Shown piece after piece: positions 4,090-21,986 of a stretch of 31,334 nt of DNA. Source of the stretch: a virus; the IMG/VR virus record IMGVR_UViG_3300031601_000015, positions 1 to 31,334 of that record. One strand, given 5' to 3'. Each line of letters begins with the position of its first letter. The first letter of the stretch is position 1. Made by a program: the position numbers and the translations under genes. The notes beneath the pieces were generated by a model that saw nothing but the letters and a program-made list of their open reading frames with translations, ran no database searches and had not been told where the DNA came from.

Positions 4090-4857
4090 CTATTCTTTTT
4101 CTTTAAACGTAACAGGGACTCCATGAGAGGAAATTGTTTTTGTGTAAATTATTACAGCTTGTTTCCACTCTTCTTTTGTAAGAAAAGGATCAGGATATCC
4201 AGTACTAAGAAAAGCACCAGTTCTTTCTTGACAAGTTCCACATTTTAAGCAGGGGCGGTCGCCTTGTCCATTGTAACAAGTCCATGTATGTTCATATGGA
4301 ACATCATGCTCCATACCCCATATAGCAATCTTTGCTTTATTCCAATTGCCAAATGGTGAAAGAATTTGAACACCATTGTATGTACCATTTTGGATAGCAT
4401 TACCCATGGCAATCGTAAATACTTCTCTACAATCTGGATAGAGATTATGATCGCCAGCATGATTTGCAAGGATGATAACATCAAATTCTCTAGATTCTGC
4501 AAAACCTGCGGCCAATGCCAACATGATACCATTCCGAAATGGAACCACTGTACTCTTCATAGATTCTTCTGCATAGTGGCCTTCAGGAATTTCCCCTTGA
4601 TCCTGTAGTAGATTGGACTTTAAGAAGGATTCCTGTTTTCCAACTATCCAACACTCCATAGGAAGATTGTATGTATAGAAGGGAATATCCAAATTTTTAC
4701 AGATCCAGGCACCAGCGGCACGTTCCTTTTCATTGTGCTTGCTTCCGTAGCTAAAGGAAATCCCAGTAACATCATACAACATATTTAATGCATAATAAAC
4801 TGCTGTGACACTATCCATACCACCTGATAACAGTATTAATGCTTTTTTCTTTTTCAT
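4090..4857 (-). CDS. queC: QueC, 7-cyano-7-deazaguanine (preQ0) synthase
   Basis: QueC uses ATP and ammonia to convert 7-carboxy-7-deazaguanine into preQ0. The 255-residue protein has the PP-loop SGGMDS (11-16), VPFRNG (105-110), YPDCRE (140-145) and a C-terminal zinc site from C194, C203, C206 and C209. AAGGATAAAC precedes the ATG. It lies downstream of recA, separated by a 12-bp hairpin, and away from queE, folE and queF, which are 10-17 kb upstream in the same block. It supplies the intermediate for QueF and DpdA. Confidence 0.95.
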   Translation of the reverse strand: MKKKKALILLSGGMDSVTAVYYALNMLYDVTGISFSYGSKHNEKERAAGAWICKNLDIPFYTYNLPMECWIVGKQESFLKSNLLQDQGEIPEGHYAEESMKSTVVPFRNGIMLALAAGFAESREFDVIILANHAGDHNLYPDCREVFTIAMGNAIQNGTYNGVQILSPFGNWNKAKIAIWGMEHDVPYEHTWTCYNGQGDRPCLKCGTCQERTGAFLSTGYPDPFLTKEEWKQAVIIYTKTISSHGVPVTFKEKE

Positions 4858-7520: not shown

Positions 7521-8471
7521 CTAAAATTTTGGTAAATCAAAACACGCTCTGGCAATAAGGGCACCAAGCTGTGCCTTGCCACTATAATATACACTTGATG
7601 AAAATAGACGCAACAGGTAGGTCATCTCCTCAGCCTCATCTTGATCCTGTGCTCCTACTAATTTTTTCCACATAAAGCTCATAATACTCCTTCGGATCCG
7701 TTCTGGATCATCTGAAAGAGAATTGTATGCTTGAAGAATGGTTTGCCACTTAGCCTTCCGCAGCTTAGGAAGCATGCATAAGTTTTTACAAATATCTATG
7801 ATGTCCACATCTTCTTCTGTTCCTGAAATCAGAAGTTCAAAAGCTTCTTCTAAGTCCATGTCTTTTGTCTGATCCAAACTAACAAGAGCATTCCTCGGAG
7901 AGCCTTCACACATTTGTGAAATGCCTTCCAACAAGTCAGGATCAACAGTAAAATCAGCTATTTTACAAGCTCGTTCTAGAACCTTCATAATATCCTTCCG
8001 ACCCAAAGGATTCACATCATACTCTGTCACACGACTCCTGATCGTTTTGATCATGTGATCTGGTTCTGTTGTGCAAATGATGATGTAGCAGTAGTCCGGA
8101 CAATCTTCTAACGGTTTCAGCAGACCCTCCTGAGCCGTAGCTGTTAGCTGATGTGACTCATCTAGCAGAATGACACGAGACTTTCCAAAAGGCCGTAACC
8201 TTGTCATCTTTTCAACTTCTCGAATGGATTCAATACCACGAGTATTCGCAGCATTTGTTTCCATAAAGTCCATATCCATATTACATTCTAATAGGTTCGC
8301 TAAGATCCTTGCAATAGTAGTCTTACCACAACCAGGAGGTCCTTTAAGCATCAGAGCATGTGGTCTGTGCTGTGGAGCCATCTGCATAAATTTCTTCAGT
8401 GAAGAGATCGTAGAAATGTTGCCTACAATATCTTCTAGTGTTTGCGGTCGCACATTTTGATAAAGTCCCAT
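7521..8471 (-). CDS. AAA+ clamp loader subunit (DnaX/RFC small-subunit-like)
   Basis: The 316-residue protein starts with LYQNVRPQTLEDIVGN, typical of DnaX and RFC loaders. Walker A GPPGCGKT is at 44-51, Walker B ILLDESH at 101-107, a sensor 1 region around ICTTEP, and a sensor 2-like GSPRNAL. The SRC motif is changed to SRV (IRSRVTEY), and no DnaX zinc module is seen. It loads the sliding clamp on primed DNA using ATP. It begins at a TAATG overlap with the polymerase gene and is preceded by GGAGG; the clamp lies just beyond the polymerase. No separate delta-like subunit is visible, so it may act as a homo-oligomer or with host subunits. Confidence 0.9.
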   Translation of the reverse strand: MGLYQNVRPQTLEDIVGNISTISSLKKFMQMAPQHRPHALMLKGPPGCGKTTIARILANLLECNMDMDFMETNAANTRGIESIREVEKMTRLRPFGKSRVILLDESHQLTATAQEGLLKPLEDCPDYCYIIICTTEPDHMIKTIRSRVTEYDVNPLGRKDIMKVLERACKIADFTVDPDLLEGISQMCEGSPRNALVSLDQTKDMDLEEAFELLISGTEEDVDIIDICKNLCMLPKLRKAKWQTILQAYNSLSDDPERIRRSIMSFMWKKLVGAQDQDEAEEMTYLLRLFSSSVYYSGKAQLGALIARACFDLPKF

Positions 8472-11149
8472 TATACCTCCACCTCCAAAGGTGACATATC
8501 ATACCAGTTTGATCCAATTTCCCACTCAACAGGAGTAGGAACGGATTCCCAATCAAAATTAGATACATTGCAAATTGATTCTACAATCTCAATGAGTTCT
8601 GGTATTTCTTCCGGCACAGCATCAAAGGTGCCGCTATCATGAACTTCTAATATGAGCATTGATTTTAATCCTCTTCGCATCACTTCTTTATCAATCAAAC
8701 GAAGTTCATTCAGAAACAAGCAGAAACCTGTCCCCTGTGTGGGATTATTATATAGCTGGAAAAGTGAAAGTGGACCACGCCTTTTAAATCCAGGCAAAGC
8801 TTCAAAGTATCCATTATCATTATATTGTTCTACAACCTCTAATTGCCAACGACGCACTTCTTTATATGTTTCCCAAAACTCTTTCTGTACCTTGATGATA
8901 TGATCCAAGCTGATTTCAGCTGCTTGAAAGTCTTCATACCTGGCAACAGCTTTAGGAGCTGAACCATAAAAACTTGCAAACACAAAACCATTTTTTCCAC
9001 CATACCGAAAGATTCCTTGTTGTTTAGGTGTAAGTTCATCCCAGTTGTACTTACTACCAGCATACAACTTTTTCGTCCAAATCCTATGAAAATCAATACC
9101 CTCAATTAATTGTTTCATAAGGATAGGATCTTTGGATTCCATCGCGATGATTCGCACTTCTAGACTGGATTTATCAAATTCTAAAAAGATGTTGCCATCA
9201 CTTGGAATGACAGCTTTCCGAAGTAGCTTCTGAGTTGGATCGTGTTTTGGAATGTTTTGTACGTTAGGATCAATGGCTGAAGAACGATATGTTTTCGCAA
9301 CATTCAATGTGAATGTGGGATGAATTCGACCATTTTTATCCATAGCCTTTTCAAATCCAGCAATTCTTTTTAATGTACCATTAGAACCTTCGACCTTTCT
9401 ATAAAGAATTAAAGCTTCAATAAACACTCGCACATCTTCAGACACTGGATTTTTTAAAATATCAGGAAATACAGCTTGACTAGCAGCAGGCTTACCACCA
9501 GCAGTCTTTACAGTTACAAGTTGACCCATATACAATTTTCCACCTTCAGAATTTTTTGTCATTGCATCTTCACCGTACAATACTTTTCCAATATCAGAAG
9601 AAGAAGTCCAAGAGAATGGTTTCTTTTTAATAGCTTCTCTATCCTCATTAAATTCTATTACAGCAGGTAAACCTGTAATTGTAACAATAGCAGCATCTCT
9701 GATGATTGTATTCTTTATTCGCATTTCTTCAAGCAAGCTCGCATCCATTTGAATGCCTCTGTGTTTCATACGAGCAAGGACACCAGCACCTTTCATATAG
9801 TTCTCACTGAATTCTATTTCTCTGCCTTTGAGCATCTCTTGTTGTACTTCATATGCCCAAATGGGATATCGAACATCAAAGCAGTTGTAATTCCAGATCT
9901 CCTCCAAAGGAACCTCAGCCATTCGTGCTTTCATCTTCTTACCAATAGTGTCATAAGTATGACCACAGAGCCTGTAAGCGATGAGCTTGAGTCCAGTTGT
10001 GTTGTCTCTACAATTTCTTATATGAGCACCAATCATGGTATCATAAGCAAAGTTGATAGGCTCCTGATTAAACATCTCCATGGACCATGGTCCTTCCATG
10101 TTAAAATTCTGTACAAGTTTTGGAGCTGAAGATGCAAGGAATGCTTCAAATGCATCCCATATACGTGTACGATCCCCAAAGGACCAATAGTGATCATCCG
10201 TTCCTGGAGTGATGTAGTCTAACGGAATACAATGAGCGTACTCCTTCGAATTAGTAATAGCGACTGTAATTAGTCTAGCTCCTTTTTCAAATGGTGAAAG
10301 ACATGTCGTTTCAAAGTCAAAGGACACAAGTTTCTTTGATGTACTATACATTTCAAGAAGCTTTACTGCATTTTGTGCATTTGTAATAAGTGAATTGCCT
10401 TTTTTTGTAAGCTTTGCAGGAAGAGGTTCTCCTAGCTTGTCTATGATGTATTCCATGTCTTCTACAAAGACAGCTGTAGGATCCAATGTTTCTTCTTTGG
10501 CCGATTGGATCTCATTTGGATCCATGATACAACCTACCCAGCACCCAAACCGATGATCTGGAAATACAAGACCATGAACGGAAGTAGGTGTGAAGATGTT
10601 TCCCGTGAACGGAACTACACAAGCAATGGACTTAATAGCATACTTACCAAGACAGATAATCAGAGATGGTTTCATCTCCTCAATCATTTTGAACAGTGTG
10701 GGCTGACAACATTTAATATGTACCTCTTTAGGAGGTGTGGTTGTTCCTTTAGCATTTGATGGGGGCTGGCATCTGACAGCAGAAATACGACTACAATCTA
10801 CATCCATATCAATCCCGAAAGATTTTAACGTCCGGCGGAGTAAGTAACCACCAGCATCAGTCAAAATTTTACCTTGTCGATCACCCGCCTTCCCTGGAGT
10901 ACCATTGATGATCATAATACCAGCTTCACCTTTCCCGTAGAGTTCAATTTTGGGAGTGTGACAGGTATCACATAATTTACAACGAGCACAATCATACTGC
11001 GTGGTAGAGGGAAGGGGACTTTTCTTACCAGTGGACTTATCACCAATATTTCTACGGGATTTGGTTTTCTTTGGATTTTTAATTTCCTCCGCTGCCAACT
11101 TATTTTGCTGGATAGTATAAGGATCTAAGAAGAATGATTTCTGTCTCAT
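8471..11149 (-). CDS. Family A DNA polymerase with N-terminal UDG-like domain and 3'-5' exonuclease
   Basis: This 892-residue fusion has three parts. Residues 50-230 resemble family 4/5 uracil-DNA glycosylases (cysteines 54, 57, 60, 63, 127, 147/148; GTPGKAGDRQGK; RCQPPSNAKG; SLIICLGKYA). Residues 270-440 are a DEDDy exonuclease (FDFETT 277-282, QNFNMEGPW, YNCFD 421-425). The C-terminal half is a family A polymerase: RSSAIDPNVQNIP, motif A FDKSSLEVR (658-666), motif B FRYGGKNGFVFASFYG (714-729) and motif C VHDSG (836-840). SPO1-like phages have comparable fusions. The UDG part lacks a clear HPA-type motif, so it may not excise uracil. It overlaps the clamp and loader genes by TAATG at both ends. 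Confidence 0.93.
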   Translation of the reverse strand: MRQKSFFLDPYTIQQNKLAAEEIKNPKKTKSRRNIGDKSTGKKSPLPSTTQYDCARCKLCDTCHTPKIELYGKGEAGIMIINGTPGKAGDRQGKILTDAGGYLLRRTLKSFGIDMDVDCSRISAVRCQPPSNAKGTTTPPKEVHIKCCQPTLFKMIEEMKPSLIICLGKYAIKSIACVVPFTGNIFTPTSVHGLVFPDHRFGCWVGCIMDPNEIQSAKEETLDPTAVFVEDMEYIIDKLGEPLPAKLTKKGNSLITNAQNAVKLLEMYSTSKKLVSFDFETTCLSPFEKGARLITVAITNSKEYAHCIPLDYITPGTDDHYWSFGDRTRIWDAFEAFLASSAPKLVQNFNMEGPWSMEMFNQEPINFAYDTMIGAHIRNCRDNTTGLKLIAYRLCGHTYDTIGKKMKARMAEVPLEEIWNYNCFDVRYPIWAYEVQQEMLKGREIEFSENYMKGAGVLARMKHRGIQMDASLLEEMRIKNTIIRDAAIVTITGLPAVIEFNEDREAIKKKPFSWTSSSDIGKVLYGEDAMTKNSEGGKLYMGQLVTVKTAGGKPAASQAVFPDILKNPVSEDVRVFIEALILYRKVEGSNGTLKRIAGFEKAMDKNGRIHPTFTLNVAKTYRSSAIDPNVQNIPKHDPTQKLLRKAVIPSDGNIFLEFDKSSLEVRIIAMESKDPILMKQLIEGIDFHRIWTKKLYAGSKYNWDELTPKQQGIFRYGGKNGFVFASFYGSAPKAVARYEDFQAAEISLDHIIKVQKEFWETYKEVRRWQLEVVEQYNDNGYFEALPGFKRRGPLSLFQLYNNPTQGTGFCLFLNELRLIDKEVMRRGLKSMLILEVHDSGTFDAVPEEIPELIEIVESICNVSNFDWESVPTPVEWEIGSNWYDMSPLEVEV

Positions 11150-12204: not shown

Positions 12205-14556
12205 CTAGAAGAATGATTTATTTGTTCTAAAAACTTTCTTTTCTTTGATTGAGCCCTCTTCTAATAACTTTTGATAATAGTAGATATTAACCTTAAACCT
12301 TTCAGTAATATCTTTTCCTAATTGCTCCATGTCTACGCCTACTTCAGCCAAGTAAATGTTTACAGCTTCAATCTCTTTTGGTGACAAGGCTAATGTATAA
12401 TGTGCATGTGTAGATGGTTTGAGTTTACTAAGTTCAGAAACAGAAACATGTAATGGTTGACAAGTATAGTCAAATACACCTTGCCCACTAATATATCTTG
12501 GAACAATTACTTTTCCATAGGCTGCGAGTTTCAGCCATGTGGTTGAGTTATGTACCAATAGTCCATTTGCAACAAACTTTTGACCATCGGGAACTTCTAA
12601 ATCATAAACAGTAGACTGTTCCGGGGCAATTGTTGTGATCTTCATTACCTTTAAAAAGGAATGATTGTTTTCTTTTTCTGATCGAGTCCCCCTATTTTCA
12701 GAAATAGAAGAAATGCTTTCTTGTAATTTTATATTTTTTCTTCCGGGCAAAAATCCAATCTTTTCTTGAAAAAGTTTTAAACTTGAAAGATTACCAATGC
12801 TTAAATTATGACATGGGCGAACTCCCCATTCCTCCTCTGTTTTTATCTTCCTTGAATGTGTACTTTCGTAAATTCTAACATCAATTCCTAAACTTTGTAG
12901 AAGGAAAAACACCCCATAAAGAAGTTTTCCACTAGTAGTGGAGCACTCAATATCATTACAACATGTTCCATCGCCACTAAAATATCCTCGAAGAAAAGAA
13001 CCCAAGTTTTCTTTTGAAAGATCAAACACCCACCAGGGGACTTCTTTAGTATGAGAATGCCCTACAAGTCCCAAAACTTTCATTGTTCTCATTAACTTAG
13101 AAGAAGAAATACTTGCATCCACCTCATTATTATCAATTCGAAGTTTGCAGTTGTATCGTTTTGCAATATCCTGCAAAAGTTGCATATGTTCTGAATCATT
13201 TGCAGCGGAGATTTGAACCGCAGCATTATTATCTAAAGAGGAATAACTTCCATCGGCTATCCACAAACCACAAAATTCTAAAAATTTGGAATCAAATTTA
13301 ATTTTTGAAGGTAATTTACGCATACACGTTGTACTTGGATGGGATTCAGATGCATACGTTTTTCTATCAATATTCACTATTTGTTCTTGTACATTGTTTG
13401 TCTGCTCATTTGTATTATAGTCTACACCAACACAATGGTTTCCCAGTTTCACTTGAGAAGTTGGAAGACATGATAATCCAGAATCATCATGTACAAACAA
13501 ACCATGATCGCCAGTAAGTGTTAATTGTCTTCCTGTTTTTGTCTTCACTCGATATTTAGTTTTAGACACACTATGGCGAATAACTTTAGAAACAGGTTTC
13601 CAAGATCCATTTCCAACATCATCTGTAACAAAAGTTTCCACATCTTTCAAAGTTTTGTATTCATGTCCAGAAGATTGTTTCTTTTTCTTTCCTTCTGTAC
13701 AATTAAACAATCCTTGAATGGTTTCTACTCGAATTCGTCCCAATTCTCTAATAAGTAAATGTGATTCGCCTACCACGGAATCGACGCTGTACCAGGAATA
13801 TCTGTGCATCAGCGAGAAGCTGGTCACTGCAAATCCATGCACCTTGATGTCCGGATTAACTGCTTGAATATACTCAAAGGCTTTATTGCCCAATCCGTTT
13901 ACGAATTGTTTAAGAGTAATACCTCCAGCAACACCACCAATACCGATGTACTCATAATTATCCACCATCTTACGAAAATGGCAAAAATCTTCTCCGTAAT
14001 GGAATACAGGAACCGGTACAAGACCATTTGCTTCCATTTTGTGCATGTTCTTCCAAGAGCCTTCAGCATTGTACACAATGTCCAAGTTTGCGTATCCATC
14101 GAAGTGATCTTTATACTTATGGCAGAATACAATGTAGTCATCAAGATACGCCTGAACTTCAGGAGTGTCGTTGAATGAAAAATCCGTGAAAGATTGGACA
14201 GCACCTTTGTTCTTTGAGGCATACGAAATCTGTTGATTTCTGTCAAGTGTATCTTCAAACTCCATTTCACTAAATTCAATAGTACCATCTTTATTTGCAC
14301 GTTTTTCAGAGTCAACTCCTGTATCATAGGATGTTCCAACTAATCCAACCGCATGGTTTAACAAACTATGTGCTCCTGAATCCATGAACAATTCAACCTC
14401 AGGCACATCATCCAACACTTTTTGAATTTGTTTTTTTTTCCAAAATGTTTCTAAACTTGTAGCACGCCCATCAAGAACCGCATTCAATCCAAGTCCCCGG
14501 GCACTAGATTTTCCAGGTGTCAAAATATTGGCAAGATGTATTTTTTGTGTACTCAT
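12205..14556 (-). CDS. dpdA: DpdA-like DNA 7-deazaguanine transglycosylase interrupted by an intein
   Basis: DpdA exchanges guanine in DNA for a 7-deazaguanine base and is related to tRNA-guanine transglycosylase (TGT). Extein motifs are FMDSGAHSLL (57-66; the aspartate matches TGT's first catalytic Asp), YIGIGGVAGG (203-212) and HGFAVTSF (240-247). SVDS begins at 257 and, after splicing, reads SVDSTTWLKLAAYG, like the DpdA form of TGT's nucleophile region. The 783-residue precursor contains an intein at 260-670, so the mature enzyme is 372 residues. The start overlaps the upstream stop by TAATG with AGAGGA before it. QueF, QueC, QueE and FolE in the same block supply the base. Confidence 0.92.
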   Translation of the reverse strand: MSTQKIHLANILTPGKSSARGLGLNAVLDGRATSLETFWKKKQIQKVLDDVPEVELFMDSGAHSLLNHAVGLVGTSYDTGVDSEKRANKDGTIEFSEMEFEDTLDRNQQISYASKNKGAVQSFTDFSFNDTPEVQAYLDDYIVFCHKYKDHFDGYANLDIVYNAEGSWKNMHKMEANGLVPVPVFHYGEDFCHFRKMVDNYEYIGIGGVAGGITLKQFVNGLGNKAFEYIQAVNPDIKVHGFAVTSFSLMHRYSWYSVDSVVGESHLLIRELGRIRVETIQGLFNCTEGKKKKQSSGHEYKTLKDVETFVTDDVGNGSWKPVSKVIRHSVSKTKYRVKTKTGRQLTLTGDHGLFVHDDSGLSCLPTSQVKLGNHCVGVDYNTNEQTNNVQEQIVNIDRKTYASESHPSTTCMRKLPSKIKFDSKFLEFCGLWIADGSYSSLDNNAAVQISAANDSEHMQLLQDIAKRYNCKLRIDNNEVDASISSSKLMRTMKVLGLVGHSHTKEVPWWVFDLSKENLGSFLRGYFSGDGTCCNDIECSTTSGKLLYGVFFLLQSLGIDVRIYESTHSRKIKTEEEWGVRPCHNLSIGNLSSLKLFQEKIGFLPGRKNIKLQESISSISENRGTRSEKENNHSFLKVMKITTIAPEQSTVYDLEVPDGQKFVANGLLVHNSTTWLKLAAYGKVIVPRYISGQGVFDYTCQPLHVSVSELSKLKPSTHAHYTLALSPKEIEAVNIYLAEVGVDMEQLGKDITERFKVNIYYYQKLLEEGSIKEKKVFRTNKSFF
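12547..13779 (-). mobile_element. Intein with LAGLIDADG homing endonuclease inside dpdA
   Basis: The 411-residue intein runs from Ser260 to Asn670 of the precursor. Block A is SVVGESHL, block B is LTLTGDHGLFV (345-355, with the conserved His351), and the C-terminal splice block is YDLEVPDGQKFVANGLLVHN (651-670), followed by Ser671 as the +1 nucleophile. Two LAGLIDADG-type motifs, FLEFCGLWIADG (425-436) and LGSFLRGYFSGDG (518-530), give a homing endonuclease. All splicing residues are present, so it should self-excise. Ser rather than Cys is the first residue, a permitted variant. The endonuclease acidic residues (D435, D529) are intact, so mobility may persist. Confidence 0.92.
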
Positions 14557-14737: not shown

Positions 14738-15223
14738 CTAAATAGTAACTGGTCCATATATATGTGGTGCCGTTAAACGCCAATGATTTAAAATTCTCAT
14801 ATATAGTTCATGGTCCGGCATATTCGGAAGAATTACAGTTGGATTAATGCTGATTCCACCACGGGGCATAAAGTCTCCCCGGACAATCAGAACTTTAGGC
14901 TTCATGACGTCATATAGTCGCCGAGCAATTCGGTTGACTACATCTTCATGAAACTCACCATGATTCCGGAAGCTGAATAGGAAGAGCTTTAATGCTTTCG
15001 ACTCAACCATTTTCAGGTCTGGGATGTATGCAATGCTAAGTTTAGCATAATCAGGTTGATGCGTAATGGGACATGTGCTAGAAAACTCCGGACACTCAAA
15101 TTCAACCACGTAATCATTCTCTGTGTGTTGGTTGTCAAAGGTTTCCAGAACTGCATCATCTGGATTGGTTGGATACTTCGTTGCACCTTGTCCTAACAGG
15201 CTCAAATTTTCTGTATCACTCAT
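14738..15223 (-). CDS. queF: QueF, preQ0 reductase (7-cyano-7-deazaguanine to preQ1)
   Basis: QueF reduces the nitrile of preQ0 to the aminomethyl of preQ1 using NADPH. The 161-residue protein has the nucleophile Cys51 in STCPITHQPD, Asp58, the NADPH-binding QueF motif ESKALKLF (74-81) and GEFHE (89-93). This is the short unimodal form, about the usual length. Because the NADPH motif is complete it should be a true reductase, not a QueF-like amidinotransferase. Its presence beside dpdA predicts preQ1 rather than preQ0 in the DNA. The start overlaps the stop of the 49-residue gene upstream. Confidence 0.92.
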   Translation of the reverse strand: MSDTENLSLLGQGATKYPTNPDDAVLETFDNQHTENDYVVEFECPEFSSTCPITHQPDYAKLSIAYIPDLKMVESKALKLFLFSFRNHGEFHEDVVNRIARRLYDVMKPKVLIVRGDFMPRGGISINPTVILPNMPDHELYMRILNHWRLTAPHIYGPVTI

Positions 15224-15680: not shown

Positions 15681-16627
15681 TCTGCTTCTCCGATGAGTTG
15701 CTGCAATTTCACTGTTCCATATATCTTTCCATACGAATCAGGATCATGTTCTTTTGGAAATTCAGCACACAACACAATGTTGATGAATGGCCTGAACCAG
15801 GCGGCTTGTTCTCGTGCCTTCCAAAAAGTTTCTGCGTCCCAGCAAAAAACAATTTTGTTTGGATTTTTCTGGAGTATCAAATGCTTTTGTTTTTCAGTTA
15901 ATGAAGTTCCAAAGGAACATACTGCACCAAGTCCTATTCTCCATTGATCCAATACTCCTTCACAAATATAAATAACATCATTTTGTGGAATTAAATTATA
16001 CCCATATAAATAATCATTAATATATCCCTTTGATGTATTATACTTAAGTTCTGCTGTCCCAGTAAGATCTGCAGCTTGATAAGAAACCAATTCATGTGTC
16101 TCTGAATAAACAGGAATGATGAGACGATTCATACACTCACCAACTTTGCAAATTCCGCAGTCCCAATGGAGTAAAGTCTCTTGAGATACTTTACGTCTTG
16201 TCTTCCATCGTTCTAAGAGTGGCCAAGGCTCTTTCAAGTTCGTTATGGATTGTGTATATTCAGGTAGTACAGTGGATATCGCTGGTCGTTCTCTTTCCCG
16301 TGGCGATGTATCCTCATCAAAGATAGATTCCAGCTGCTCCAATGTCTCAACTTTAAACGTGGACGTCTCAATGTCCAACATGTTTTCAGCTACTTCATAC
16401 GAAATATTTAATAAAGAAGCAAGTAATACAAAAGCAGGACCACGTGATTGACATCGCCAACAAGAAAAGACTTGTGTCTCTGGAAAGAATCCACAATGAT
16501 TAGAGGGATCATCACAGAAAGGACAGTTTACATTTACTGAACCTTCAGAGACATTTTTACCCTCAGTCCAGTATTCAATATCAAATTCTTTGTAAATACT
16601 AATGAGCAATTCTTTACTATCAGTCAT
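15677..16627 (-). CDS. DNA primase with CHC2-type zinc finger and TOPRIM domain
   Basis: The 316-residue protein has an N-terminal zinc finger (C35-P-F-C38, then C56-W-R-C59) as in DnaG and phage primases. The TOPRIM region has E223 in YICEGVLDQWR and D264 in FCWDAETFW. The usual DxD acidic pair is here DxE, a conservative change. There is no helicase domain, and replicative helicase is encoded separately 2 kb upstream in the same block. It makes RNA primers for lagging-strand synthesis. Its start overlaps the HNH gene stop by eight bases, with only a weak ribosome site. Confidence 0.88.
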   Translation of the reverse strand: MTDSKELLISIYKEFDIEYWTEGKNVSEGSVNVNCPFCDDPSNHCGFFPETQVFSCWRCQSRGPAFVLLASLLNISYEVAENMLDIETSTFKVETLEQLESIFDEDTSPRERERPAISTVLPEYTQSITNLKEPWPLLERWKTRRKVSQETLLHWDCGICKVGECMNRLIIPVYSETHELVSYQAADLTGTAELKYNTSKGYINDYLYGYNLIPQNDVIYICEGVLDQWRIGLGAVCSFGTSLTEKQKHLILQKNPNKIVFCWDAETFWKAREQAAWFRPFINIVLCAEFPKEHDPDSYGKIYGTVKLQQLIGEAE

Positions 16628-17165
16628 TATGTTCTTTCACTATTTCATAAATATGTTTCCATGACTCGCCCGCACAAATTGAATATATGGTCGTTGTTAC
16701 AATTTTATACATATTTGCAAATCGTATTTTATCCTCACGTTTACTGCAATTAATTAAGATATTAACCACATCCAAAGGTTGCAATTTACTTTTCCAGTGA
16801 TCTGCTCCCCTAGGTCGTTTTCCATTTCTAACTGAATCTTCCCCATTCTGTTTTATAGTTCCCCAGGCCAAATTACTAAGGTCATTATTTGAATTGTCAT
16901 CATCTAAGTGACGTGCTACTTCTTTTGGGGCTGGTAAGCGTACAAATGTGGTTAAAAGAATTTTTGCTTTGGACCAATATGCCTTTTTTGCCCCTTCATA
17001 TAATCCAATGGAACTATAATTTTTACTCCCAATATCCTTCAAATATCCACCAGAACATTGGGACCAAACTTGCCCTTTTAAATTCACATAGTATCTAGGA
17101 AATCCTGGAATTTGTACCATGCCTTTTGGAACAGGTGTTTTATTTTGAAGGTAACGAATCATCAT
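16620..17165 (-). CDS. HNH homing endonuclease with NUMOD4-like N terminus
   Basis: The protein has an N-terminal NUMOD4-like segment (QIPGFPRYYVNLKGQVWS), an HNH motif (ARHLDDDNSNNDLSNLAWGT) and a C-terminal DNA-binding helix region (WKSKLQPLDVVNIL, ESWKHIYEIV). I chose the ATG at 17165, one base after the helicase stop, because GGGAG lies six bases upstream; ATG 17177 is possible. It is a paralogue of the HNH gene at 21576-21986. Free-standing HNH genes of this kind in phages cut intronless or related genomes and spread themselves and flanking DNA. It is inserted between the SF2 helicase and primase genes. Confidence 0.88.
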   Translation of the reverse strand: MMIRYLQNKTPVPKGMVQIPGFPRYYVNLKGQVWSQCSGGYLKDIGSKNYSSIGLYEGAKKAYWSKAKILLTTFVRLPAPKEVARHLDDDNSNNDLSNLAWGTIKQNGEDSVRNGKRPRGADHWKSKLQPLDVVNILINCSKREDKIRFANMYKIVTTTIYSICAGESWKHIYEIVKEHND

Positions 17166-17166
17166 A

Positions 17167-18657
17167 TTATCTCCCATACTCCCTCATATACTCCAACATA
17201 GATTTTACGAAACTAAATCTTGGACCTCGATTTTTTATCATCCTTGCATCAGCTGAATATTTTAATGTGAAATCCATCACATAACATCTAGGACTTATCT
17301 GTACATTTCTACGAACACGGCCAATACACTGTTTCCTGATGAGAGGAGAACCAATTGGGCTAAAAAAACCAACCATATCAGTCACTGTACCATCAAATCC
17401 TTCTTTGGAACAGATATCTTGTGCTATTAAAACTCTATAAGTTAGATCAGTTTGAAAGTCTTTAATAGCTTTCTTTCTAGCATCATGACTTTGACCACCA
17501 AATACAGCACTATATTTAATTTTTGCTTTCTTAAACGCACGTTGCATCGCTTCCAATTCACCTTGCCAGTGATAAAACATAATGAGTTTCTTATGTGTTC
17601 CATTTAACTTATCAACTACAGCCTCAGCCTTTGGATTAGATGTAAGATGGTGGATGATTTTCTTTTTAGTATCAGAGATAGTCTCATAGAAAAATCCGGA
17701 GGCGAGTTCTTTACAAAGCATACCAATAGCGGAGGGATTCCCATTGGCTGAAATAGCAATACCTTTATGAATGAATTTTCCTGTTCGGATCAATATATTC
17801 TGAAGTTTCAAGAATTCAGAAGTGGCTTGACATTCAATCACAGTGTCTGTCACTTCTGGCATGTCACAACATTCTGTGTCTTCAAATCTAATTACAGATT
17901 GTTCAGCTCTATTCAGAATTTTTGGTTCTGCTCCTTTATTAATTTCCCATTCAAATACTGACTTGTGAAAATACTTTAAAAGATAACCATAAAAATTTGT
18001 TCCTAAGGAAACCCCATGATCAATAACTTTCATGATATTAAAAAGTTCCAGGAGGGAATGATCAATTGGCGTACCTGTCATGCCAATAGTATAAGAAACA
18101 AGTTTACTGAGTTCATAACATATTTCAGACTGAAGAGAATTATAGGTCTTGCATCTATGAACTTCATCTAAAATCAGTCCATCAAAACCATACTTATGAA
18201 TTTTATTAAGATCAATAACCCATTTATTTACAATTTTTCCTGTCTTTTTATTAAGTGTAAGTTTACGTTTAGCAAAAACAGATTTTAAACCTTCATAATT
18301 GATTGTGACCATGTTTAAAGATTTGGATGTAAAAATTTTCTCTCGTTCTCTTTTTGTTCCAACAGCAAAATCAATAGAATAATTTGTAAAGGCAGGTGTA
18401 TCTCTTTCCCAAGCACTGTATGCGGAAGATGGACAACATGTTAAAATCTTATTGCAATGCCAGATGTTTTTCATAGTCATTAAGGCCAAAGGTGTTTTTC
18501 CTGTACCGACATCATGAAAAAAACCTACTCGATTTCTTGATTCAGCAAATACCATAGAAAAATATTGATGCCAATACGGAGAAAGTTTGAAATCCATTTC
18601 TTCAAAAATGTACTCACATTCAATTTTAGAAAGAGATTTGTAGTCTAAATTAGCCAT
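17167..18657 (-). CDS. Superfamily 2 DNA helicase (DEVH, SNF2/UvsW-like)
   Basis: The 496-residue protein has all main SF2 motifs: a Q-motif region, Walker A DVGTGKT (49-55), DEVH (164-167), TGTP (194-197) and motif VI QCIGRVRR (443-450). The spacing and the second domain (LIMFYHWQGELEAM) fit phage SNF2-like or UvsW-like helicases, which branch-migrate recombination intermediates or remodel replication forks. Its start abuts the DnaB-like stop, so both are co-translated. The C terminus lacks extra zinc or nuclease domains. Confidence 0.9.
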   Translation of the reverse strand: MANLDYKSLSKIECEYIFEEMDFKLSPYWHQYFSMVFAESRNRVGFFHDVGTGKTPLALMTMKNIWHCNKILTCCPSSAYSAWERDTPAFTNYSIDFAVGTKREREKIFTSKSLNMVTINYEGLKSVFAKRKLTLNKKTGKIVNKWVIDLNKIHKYGFDGLILDEVHRCKTYNSLQSEICYELSKLVSYTIGMTGTPIDHSLLELFNIMKVIDHGVSLGTNFYGYLLKYFHKSVFEWEINKGAEPKILNRAEQSVIRFEDTECCDMPEVTDTVIECQATSEFLKLQNILIRTGKFIHKGIAISANGNPSAIGMLCKELASGFFYETISDTKKKIIHHLTSNPKAEAVVDKLNGTHKKLIMFYHWQGELEAMQRAFKKAKIKYSAVFGGQSHDARKKAIKDFQTDLTYRVLIAQDICSKEGFDGTVTDMVGFFSPIGSPLIRKQCIGRVRRNVQISPRCYVMDFTLKYSADARMIKNRGPRFSFVKSMLEYMREYGR

Positions 18658-20301: not shown

Positions 20302-20859
20302 CTATGCATCAAGAAATTCTTGTTTTAAGCCAAGATCTGTAAGTAATGCTCCGCGAATGGATGATGTTACAGTCATTGCTCCTGTGGATTGGATTCCACG
20401 ACAGGTCATACATTCATGTTCTGCTGTCAAAACAACGCCAACACCCTTAGGTTCTAAATATTCCATCAGTGTATCAGCCACTTGATCAGTTAGATGTTCT
20501 TGTACTTGAAGACGATGAGCAAAACATTCAAGTATACGAGCTAACTTAGATAACCCTGTGACTTTACCACTGGGAAGATATCCAATTTTTGCAGTACCTC
20601 TGAAAGAAACCAGATGATGAGCACAATGGCTGATAAAAGGAATATCCTTTACAATCACCAAGCTATCATACTTATCAACAAATTCAACATTCAGTATATC
20701 TTTGGGATCTTGACCATATCCCGCACCAAATGTTTTGATCCAAGCTTTGGCCACACGTTCAGGTGTGCGACGGAGATGTTGATCCTCCAAATCCAAACCC
20801 ATGCCTTCAATAAAATTCGCAATTGCTTTTTCCATTCGTGGTTGGTCGTACTGATGCAT
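20302..20859 (-). CDS. folE: FolE, GTP cyclohydrolase I
   Basis: FolE converts GTP to dihydroneopterin triphosphate, the first step of the 7-deazaguanine pathway. The protein has RTPERVAKAW (31-40), the zinc/catalytic region SHCAHHL (77-83), GKVTGLSKLAR (98-108), RLQVQEHLT (116-124) and HECMTCRG (148-155). Of two adjacent ATGs I prefer 20859, since GGAG is only two bases from the one at 20862. The common CEHH is CAHH here; the zinc ligands C79, H82 and C150 remain. The gene follows queE after nine bases, giving the first two pathway genes together. Confidence 0.95.
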   Translation of the reverse strand: MHQYDQPRMEKAIANFIEGMGLDLEDQHLRRTPERVAKAWIKTFGAGYGQDPKDILNVEFVDKYDSLVIVKDIPFISHCAHHLVSFRGTAKIGYLPSGKVTGLSKLARILECFAHRLQVQEHLTDQVADTLMEYLEPKGVGVVLTAEHECMTCRGIQSTGAMTVTSSIRGALLTDLGLKQEFLDA

Positions 20860-20868
20860 CATAACTCC

Positions 20869-21576
20869 TTAACGTTCTTCTATTGCATTTGGCCACAATA
20901 CTTTGTGGATTTGTAAACTGTATTGAATGTCCCACATCTCATCTTCAATCAACAACTCTGCCAATTGAGCAGCCCAAGTATACTTTGAAAGCTCTACATA
21001 ATCCTCATCACTAAGTGCGGGAGACACAGCTATCTGTGCTTTCATCATATGAAATTGACAGTCAAGAAGTGTTTTCATGTAGGTATACTCATCCTCAGAA
21101 GAAAGAACGAATTTAACAACATCTTCTTTTCTAAGTATCAAAAAGTTTTGAATGGACATTCGATGCTCCATTCCACTGGATGGCATCTTATAGTCCATCA
21201 CAATTCTGACATTAGGATTGTTTGCGATTTCAGAAGGAACCGCATAAGATCCATTTGTTTCAATTGATATCATTTGCTTAGGATATATACCAATGCCCAG
21301 TTGTTTGATTAAAGAAACAACTCCAATTATTTGTTCAAAGGGCTCCCCACCTGTAATTGTAATCTTTGGACTCCGCCGGAGCTTGTCAACAAGCACAGCA
21401 ATCGCCGTCTCTTTACCATCACACTGTTGTAGTGCATATTTGGTATCGCAATAGGTACACCTCAGGTTACACCCAGCAAGCCTAAGGAACGTGGTTAATT
21501 GGCCGGCACCTCTAAAGCCATTAACTTCTCCATCAATAGCCCTAAAAATGGATTTGACGAACAATGTGTTTCGCAT
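20869..21576 (-). CDS. queE: QueE, 7-carboxy-7-deazaguanine synthase (radical SAM)
   Basis: QueE makes 7-carboxy-7-deazaguanine from 6-carboxytetrahydropterin by radical SAM chemistry. The 235-residue protein has CNLRCTYC (Cys36, Cys40, Cys43 bind the 4Fe-4S cluster), TGGEPF (75-80) and the C-terminal LQIHKVLWPN typical of QueE. Its start overlaps the HNH stop by TAATG, with GGGGA ahead. Its substrate is made by QueD, for which I find no gene in this window. Confidence 0.95.
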   Translation of the reverse strand: MRNTLFVKSIFRAIDGEVNGFRGAGQLTTFLRLAGCNLRCTYCDTKYALQQCDGKETAIAVLVDKLRRSPKITITGGEPFEQIIGVVSLIKQLGIGIYPKQMISIETNGSYAVPSEIANNPNVRIVMDYKMPSSGMEHRMSIQNFLILRKEDVVKFVLSSEDEYTYMKTLLDCQFHMMKAQIAVSPALSDEDYVELSKYTWAAQLAELLIEDEMWDIQYSLQIHKVLWPNAIEER

Positions 21577-21986
21577 TACGTCCCCACAAAAATATTATAA
21601 ATATGTTTCCATATACGTCCATGAGAAATATCAGCAACGGTTGTTGCATGCACAGTATACATTTTAGCAAGCTTAGTATGTGTATACTTCTTTTCTGATA
21701 TTGACCAAAGGATATTGAGTACATCAAGGGGAAATAATTTTGAACGCCCATGTTTCTCACCAATATGAGAATGGCCATTTCTGATCATATCCGCCATATT
21801 TTGTTTATTGGTTCCCCAAGCAAGATTTTCAAGTTTATTATCTGTATTGATATCATTAAGATGCCTGCCGAGTTCCCCAAGCTTTGGTGGTCGTACAAAT
21901 GTGGTTAAAAACCTGTTGGATTTCTCAGACCAGACTTCCCCCTTCAAGTTTATATGGTATCCGGGGAAGCCTGGAATTGGTTTCAT
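21576..21986 (-). CDS. HNH homing endonuclease, paralogue of 16620-17165
   Basis: The 136-residue protein has PGFPGYHINLKGEVWS (NUMOD4-like), HNH motif GRHLNDINTDNKLENLAWGT and C-terminal WKHIYNI. Compared with the 16620-17165 protein it lacks the middle NUMOD part, but it shares LxPLDVxNIL and the WKHIY ending. AGAGG lies six bases upstream, inside the end of the DUF932 gene. It separates the DUF932 gene from queE and probably inserted there as a mobile unit. Confidence 0.88.
   Translation of the reverse strand: MKPIPGFPGYHINLKGEVWSEKSNRFLTTFVRPPKLGELGRHLNDINTDNKLENLAWGTNKQNMADMIRNGHSHIGEKHGRSKLFPLDVLNILWSISEKKYTHTKLAKMYTVHATTVADISHGRIWKHIYNIFVGT

Follow-up and report, generated by a model that had tools for sequence, protein, structure and literature searches.

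What becomes of a DNA-modifying enzyme when an intein lies directly behind the residue that probably carries out its chemistry? The question is raised by a dpdA gene in a virus record of 31,334 bases (hereafter the window, meaning the whole stretch of DNA that was analysed), for which an initial annotation had proposed that such an intein could switch DNA modification on. The reading favoured here, to which we assign a probability of about 0.85 on sequence evidence, is that a class 1 homing intein has been inserted in a phage dpdA gene just after the codon for the nucleophilic Asp and would be spliced out to give a working enzyme.

The dpdA gene, its intein and its neighbours

The dpdA gene (12205–14556, minus strand, stop codon included) is one open frame of 783 residues comprising an N-extein, an intein and a C-extein, as recognized from the reading frame, a phrog_887 match and Pfam intein domains. 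The N-extein (residues 1–259; 13780–14556, minus strand) ends in ...WYSVD and the C-extein (residues 671–783; 12208–12546, minus strand) starts with STTWLKLAAYG; both limits come from reading of the junctions and from orthologue alignments. The intein between them (residues 260–670, 411 amino acids; 12547–13779, minus strand), delimited by Pfam, NCBIfam and the junction reading, begins with Ser1 in SVVGES and closes with His-Asn, its first codon lying at 13779–13777 and its last at 12549–12547. The intein span in the initial annotation was exact to the codon, and its junction, SVD/S...N/STTW, matches the one read here (SVD/S...HN/STTW, between Asp259 and Ser671), across which intein-free orthologues are continuous.

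Pfam identifies Intein_splicing (E 2.2e-17) and LAGLIDADG_3 (PF14528, E 1e-12) domains in the precursor, while the NCBIfam models intein_Nterm (TIGR01445, E 1.6e-7) and intein_Cterm (TIGR01443, E 3.3e-7, covering residues 650–671) both score above cut-off, and the archaeal TFIIB intein 5o9i matches the intein at both its ends (E 1.1e-10). Class 1 splicing is described, in passages of PMC4031507 and PMC10663303, as using Ser1 or Cys1, a TxxH motif, a terminal Asn and a Cys, Ser or Thr at +1. All of these marks are present, namely Ser260 as the first residue, the block B motif TGDH (residues 348–351; 13504–13515, minus strand; motif role from part of PMC10663303), and the block G pair of penultimate His669 and terminal Asn670 (12547–12552, minus strand; NCBIfam and junction reading) followed by Ser671, together with a gap-free extein alignment to intein-free homologues. 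Ser671 (codon 12544–12546, minus strand), placed by the junction and by its invariance, is the +1 splicing nucleophile and becomes Ser260 of spliced DpdA. Besides the endonuclease domain, the intein retains the acidic residues of both LAGLIDADG motifs, which we take to be the catalytic acids of the endonuclease: motif 1 is FCGLWIADG (residues 428–436; 13249–13275, minus strand) and motif 2 is LRGYFSGDG (residues 522–530; 12967–12993, minus strand), both located by sequence and domain match. By its domains and motifs, the segment of residues 260–670 is a class 1 intein with a LAGLIDADG homing endonuclease. A chance match or misplaced boundaries are ruled out by the domain matches and the gap-free orthologue alignments, and a frame-broken gene by the single open frame.

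The host had been named as DpdA, and this holds: the N-extein matches phrog_887 (queuine tRNA-ribosyltransferase; E 3.4e-27, residues 132–260) and the joined extein, 372 amino acids once the intein is removed, aligns with phage DpdAs. Full-length alignments give extein identities of 54%, 50% and 52% with the intein-free IMG/VR proteins L024, L026 and L027, and a further one, L025, is 58% identical over residues 1–353; the junction is crossed without a gap in the alignments with L024, L025 and L027, and the site in intein-free L017 reads WYSVDSTTWL. No variation is seen at Asp59, Asp259 or Ser260 across all 14 sequences compared (the window extein and 13 uninterrupted phage proteins annotated as queuine tRNA-ribosyltransferase or hypothetical), and the site Asp is kept in every row of two further alignments (26/26 and 41/41). 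Pfam TGT (PF01702) has no match in the precursor or anywhere in the record. The phrog_887 match, the Asp pair and the presence of 7-deazaguanine genes are those of the DpdA family, and insertion of a base into DNA is predicted.

The window protein resembles phage DpdA (phrog_887, the type treated in part of PMC6884629) in its conserved Asp pair and in the 7-deazaguanine genes close by, and the order dpdA–sliding clamp–DNA polymerase A is shared with Vibrio phage VpKK5. It differs from the 13 aligned phage proteins, which are uninterrupted, in carrying the intein. It also has an insertion of about 60 residues, which follows Asp59 (residues about 64–134; about 14155–14367), is common to the window and L024–L027, is absent from L017 and is of low confidence in both predicted models; a second mobile element is not favoured as its origin, given that L024–L027 carry it too. 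Bacterial DpdA copies on plasmids (L104–L107) align at both Asp positions and are unlike the window protein in being bacterial and larger (416–714 amino acids), with an intein in none of the four.

Genes of the 7-deazaguanine pathway lie on the minus strand of the window. They comprise a QueC-like gene (4090–4857; phrog_1550, E 1.7e-61), a QueF-like gene (14738–15223; QueF-II E 9.1e-44, above cut-off; Pfam QueF E 8.6e-30), FolE, or GTP cyclohydrolase I (20302–20862; Pfam E 2.1e-62), and a QueE-like radical SAM gene (20869–21576; phrog_2076, E 3.1e-31; rSAM_QueE_Clost E 3e-44, below the curated cut-off); QueD was found in none of the window ORFs scanned, and the record may be a fragment. According to part of PMC6884629, the QueF homologue of Streptococcus phage Dp-1 acts like QueF and the phage DNA carries dPreQ1; because a QueF-like gene is present here as in Dp-1, dPreQ1 may also occur in the window phage. 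Elsewhere on the minus strand, one ORF (8471–11149) combines a uracil-DNA glycosylase domain with a 3'-5' exonuclease and DNA polymerase A, and two HNH-endonuclease-like ORFs (16620–17177 and 21576–21986) are possibly further mobile elements.

The aspartate at the insertion site

Two aspartates are central to the host enzyme. Asp59 (codon 14380–14382, minus strand; in FMDSGAHS) is aligned to the general acid/base Asp of TGT through the 14/14 invariance and the alignment bridge described below, and Asp259 (codon 13780–13782, minus strand) has a double role as probable catalytic nucleophile and as the -1 residue of the intein, the former on the basis of invariance and of alignment to bacterial DpdA and E. 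coli TGT D264. A profile of phage DpdAs (83 sequences, 81 of them used by the program) matches four bacterial DpdAs with a probability of 97.7% (E 7.9e-12), Asp59 falling on GDCGAF and Asp259 on SIDSTT, and SIDST of the solved bacterial DpdA, a DNA-guanine transglycosylase (PDB 7ui4), aligns to the phage profile with E 0.033. The bacterial DpdAs match E. coli TGT (93.1%, E 3.2e-7) with SIDSTTP on MFDCVMP (Asp264), which links Asp59 and Asp259 through bacterial DpdA to D89 and D264 of E. coli TGT; in a PDB alignment D264 lies opposite residue 280 of a Zymomonas TGT chain. In Zymomonas TGT, Asp280 is the nucleophile, covalently bound to ribose, and Asp102 is its acid/base partner, as stated in parts of PMC4425180 and PMC6165067. 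The initial annotation had spoken of a covalent base intermediate at this residue; Asp as the TGT nucleophile stands, but the bond is to the ribose and not to the base (PMC6165067, in part).

The mapping was routed through bacterial DpdA because the direct match of the phage profile to E. coli TGT is weak (21%) and covers the first Asp region alone. That the direct alignment stops short of the second Asp could be taken to mean that the nucleophile lies elsewhere and that Asp259 is simply a conserved residue, which we judge extremely unlikely: Asp59 and Asp259 are the very pair aligned through bacterial DpdA with D89 and D264, D264 is paired with Zymomonas residue 280, and the equivalent of Asp259 in a predicted structure of L024 (Asp256) sits in a strand of a TGT-like fold. 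Asp259 is the probable catalytic nucleophile, and alignment of the extein with DpdA and TGT puts it on E. coli D264 and Zymomonas D280, not elsewhere, in agreement with the earlier statement that the intein directly follows the residue equivalent to the TGT nucleophile.

The model of intein-free L024 has a mean pLDDT of 83.8 and a pTM of 0.81. Compared by VIA with T. maritima TGT it gives Z 18.9 and rmsd 3.2 over 267 residues, and the best 50 VIA matches listed are all TGT or archaeosine TGT; this VIA comparison suggests that the intein-free orthologue has a TGT-like predicted fold. Foldseek with the same model yielded no match at E <= 0.001, and TGT is absent from the best 50 matches listed, the top ranks being occupied by Cap10 and common TIM barrels. 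The first Foldseek match is 9ntn, a Cap10-CdnD complex with an NDG modification, which could hint at a TGT-like enzyme that takes part in defence. The model of the precursor is without the strand that carries the Asp in the L024 model; because its pTM is 0.54 and its pLDDT falls below 50 at both junctions, it lends weak support to a disrupted active site.

Related inteins and their distribution

Six DpdA inteins are known from this analysis, including that of the window. Three occupy the D/S bond (the window, L020 and L019) and three the DS/T bond (L002, which is the gut phage MT835482.1; L021, which is IMG/VR UViG_3300029989_000117; and L115, which is JAMOAB010000035.1:555-3134). MT835482.1 and L021 are like the window in having a homologous intein in a phrog_887 DpdA-like protein, whereas their insertion is one codon downstream, DS/T rather than D/S. 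Because of this later insertion, L002, L021 and L115 have Ser at -1 and Thr at +1; L019 and L020 retain Asp at -1, and their frames are open. All six match one another by blastp, the best match of the window intein being L020 (38%, E 7e-93). Pfam intein and endonuclease domains occur in each of the four others scanned (L020, L019, L021 and L002), and PHROGs assigns all four to phrog_887, together with L018 and L024, which have no intein. In the L019 intein the first acidic residue of the LAGLIDADG motifs is replaced by Asn, and that of L115 is a mini-intein of 188 amino acids with, by reading, no room for an endonuclease, although it matches the other five by blastp. This range from intact to reduced endonuclease (L019, L115) fits a homing cycle. 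In the L019 record (G001), LAGLIDADG matches also fall in two long frames (contig 10498–11055 and 62955–63194), and these may mark another intein or endonuclease besides that in DpdA.

A scan of viral_contigs with a 3'-junction pattern returned two stretches, both D/S DpdA inteins (L019 and L020), and a pattern one codon shorter returned one, L021. In genome_contigs the window-type (D/S) pattern gave 0 stretches and the shorter pattern eight, of which one is the DpdA intein of L115 (on a Bacillota MAG contig) and six are in frames of 16–101 amino acids and probably due to chance. Both patterns require an Asn/Asp-Gly and a His-Asn motif, so some DpdA inteins may go undetected. One of the eight stretches, L117 (CAIQQO010000477.1), is in a terminase-like ORF of 1001 amino acids with what seem, by reading only, to be two intein-like segments.

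Uninterrupted sites are common among the compared DpdAs. The best 60 of 170 'phages' records matching the extein are all continuous across the site, and MT835482.1 is the one intein-bearing DpdA among the 'phages' records inspected. The S-x-D-S site is intact by pattern in 77 of 80 viral DpdA relatives examined from a total of 485, a sample that is biased because one of the two search patterns demands an intact site and that holds the L017 contig again and some near-copies; the remaining three (L079, L090 and L092) were read as uninterrupted, and in L053 the match exceeds the frame read and the site is whole. Empty sites are represented by L024–L027 and L017 and, in a second DpdA branch, by Bacteroides phage BS162P1, an intein-free relative of L002 (61%) with FFSVDSVTWLGG. 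Compared with 'phages' records, the window intein scores highest against the other DpdA intein (E 3e-34, 140 bits); inteins from polymerases and from a reductase follow, with 63 bits at best. Nothing nearly identical to 22 kb of the window turned up in 'phages', and related-locus searches with the whole precursor and with the intein pair found no relative. The patchy presence among compared DpdAs, together with the location at a conserved catalytic site, fits a homing element.

A branch with support 85/84 (88% of bootstraps) separates five DpdA inteins from six further phage inteins, in a tree with modest support and flagged long branches. In a DpdA tree of 26 chosen rows, intein presence requires four changes, a number that 35 of 500 label shuffles match; the window gene shares a clade with five genes that lack the intein (100/99), L020 stands next to intein-free L071 (99/95), and L019 (D/S) lies between DS/T hosts. 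The six-intein tree separates the window and L020 from the other four (100/99), a split that follows the two DpdA branches, and because of this the trees are as compatible with long-standing vertical inheritance and repeated loss as with recent homing within each branch. The DS/T inteins (L002, L021 and L115) do not group together in the same tree (30% of bootstraps), L115 having a long branch. The window and L020 inteins are each other's best match, yet when the tree is rooted on six further phage inteins the former branches off first and L020 joins the rest (88/90), so the two were dropped as sisters.

A survey of mycobacteriophages (PMC5050341, in part) likewise reports sporadic phage inteins, many with homing endonucleases, beside conserved motifs, and often after invariant residues, DNA methyltransferases included. 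The window intein differs from the survey inteins in that the -1 residue is itself the probable nucleophile.

Splicing, persistence and the question of regulation

The proposed course of events, in which splicing, homing activity, precursor inactivity and the modification made are all predictions from sequence, runs as follows. An intein with a LAGLIDADG endonuclease would have been inserted in dpdA at the codon boundary right after the nucleophile Asp. In the precursor, Asp259 would be parted from Ser-Thr-Thr-Trp, and the unspliced protein should for that reason not modify DNA. Self-excision would proceed by an acyl shift at Ser1, attack by Ser+1 and cyclisation of Asn670, joining Asp259 to Ser671 and restoring SVDSTTW. 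Ser671 thus serves twice, first as the +1 splicing nucleophile and then, in mature DpdA, as the invariant Ser that follows the catalytic Asp. The spliced enzyme would modify phage DNA with a 7-deazaguanine base, either preQ0 or, in view of the QueF gene, perhaps preQ1. Two things could keep the intein in place: homing by its endonuclease into dpdA alleles without an intein, and the need for exact removal if the enzyme is to work. That the precursor has no normal active site until splicing, as had been claimed, is consistent with the intein following the nucleophile-aligned residue, and the precursor is probably inactive before splicing.

An Asp at -1 could make splicing inefficient, since PMC10663303 (in part, citing Amitai 2009) reports that it promotes off-pathway N-terminal cleavage. 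If cleavage replaced splicing, the phage DpdA would be largely disabled, a view that could draw on this behaviour of other inteins and on the Ser at -1 in three of the six DpdA inteins; we regard it as very improbable, as the window ORF is intact, the invariant residues are kept in the joined extein and L019 and L020 have open frames with Asp at -1. The overlap might instead have a subtler effect. With the nucleophile as the -1 residue, splicing could compete with self-inactivation in a pH- or time-dependent manner, and some lineages could have escaped by a one-codon move that kept D-S-T-T-W in the mature protein; this is conceivable but doubtful. Were it true, Ser at -1 with Thr at +1 would be the escape state of the shifted inteins.

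The proposal that the intein acts as a switch for DNA modification did not fare well, as no regulatory feature was found and the intact endonuclease motifs, the patchiness and the catalytic-motif site fit a homing element. A conditional switch would require a signal during infection that holds back or sets off splicing and so times DNA modification. The location does make enzyme activity depend on splicing, but any intein in a catalytic site would create the same dependence; conditional splicing is known in other inteins, yet no sensor or shared extra feature was noticed among the DpdA inteins in an inspection that was not systematic. The 188-residue L115 mini-intein is a case of a DpdA intein retained without an endonuclease and speaks for a switch, whereas the endonuclease motifs of the window are apparently intact and close orthologues manage without an intein. 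Regulation by conditional splicing is unlikely on this balance, and a homing intein whose splicing would leave a working DpdA is the reading that we retain.

The dpdA gene appears to be an intein host not described before. No report of an intein in DpdA or TGT was found in the open-access literature searched; such an intein is not described in the available parts of PMC8594841, PMC7824862, PMC3655853, PMC10343443, PMC4912749 and PMC9992855, where the enzyme and intein terms occur separately, and in the mycobacteriophage survey PMC5050341 'queuine' has 0 occurrences and 'DpdA' is also absent. The earlier impression of novelty is upheld as regards publication but not as regards uniqueness, as the D/S bond is also interrupted in L019 and L020 and the DS/T bond in L002, L021 and L115. 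The gene for the enzyme responsible for 7-deazaguanine DNA modification would thereby join the known intein hosts, and its alleles range from full-length to mini-intein, with empty sites besides. The overlap of nucleophile and -1 residue, with the natural one-codon difference, offers a natural experiment on how splicing chemistry constrains intein sites. Annotation also needs care, as intein-bearing dpdA genes may be missed or mis-sized. By reading, the DpdA of L019 (4685–7468) and L115 (555–3134) runs on into a Cys-containing C-terminal part, and in L018 (6983–7738) and L021 (6775–7488) an apparently separate downstream gene corresponds to the C-terminal part that is fused in L019 and L115.
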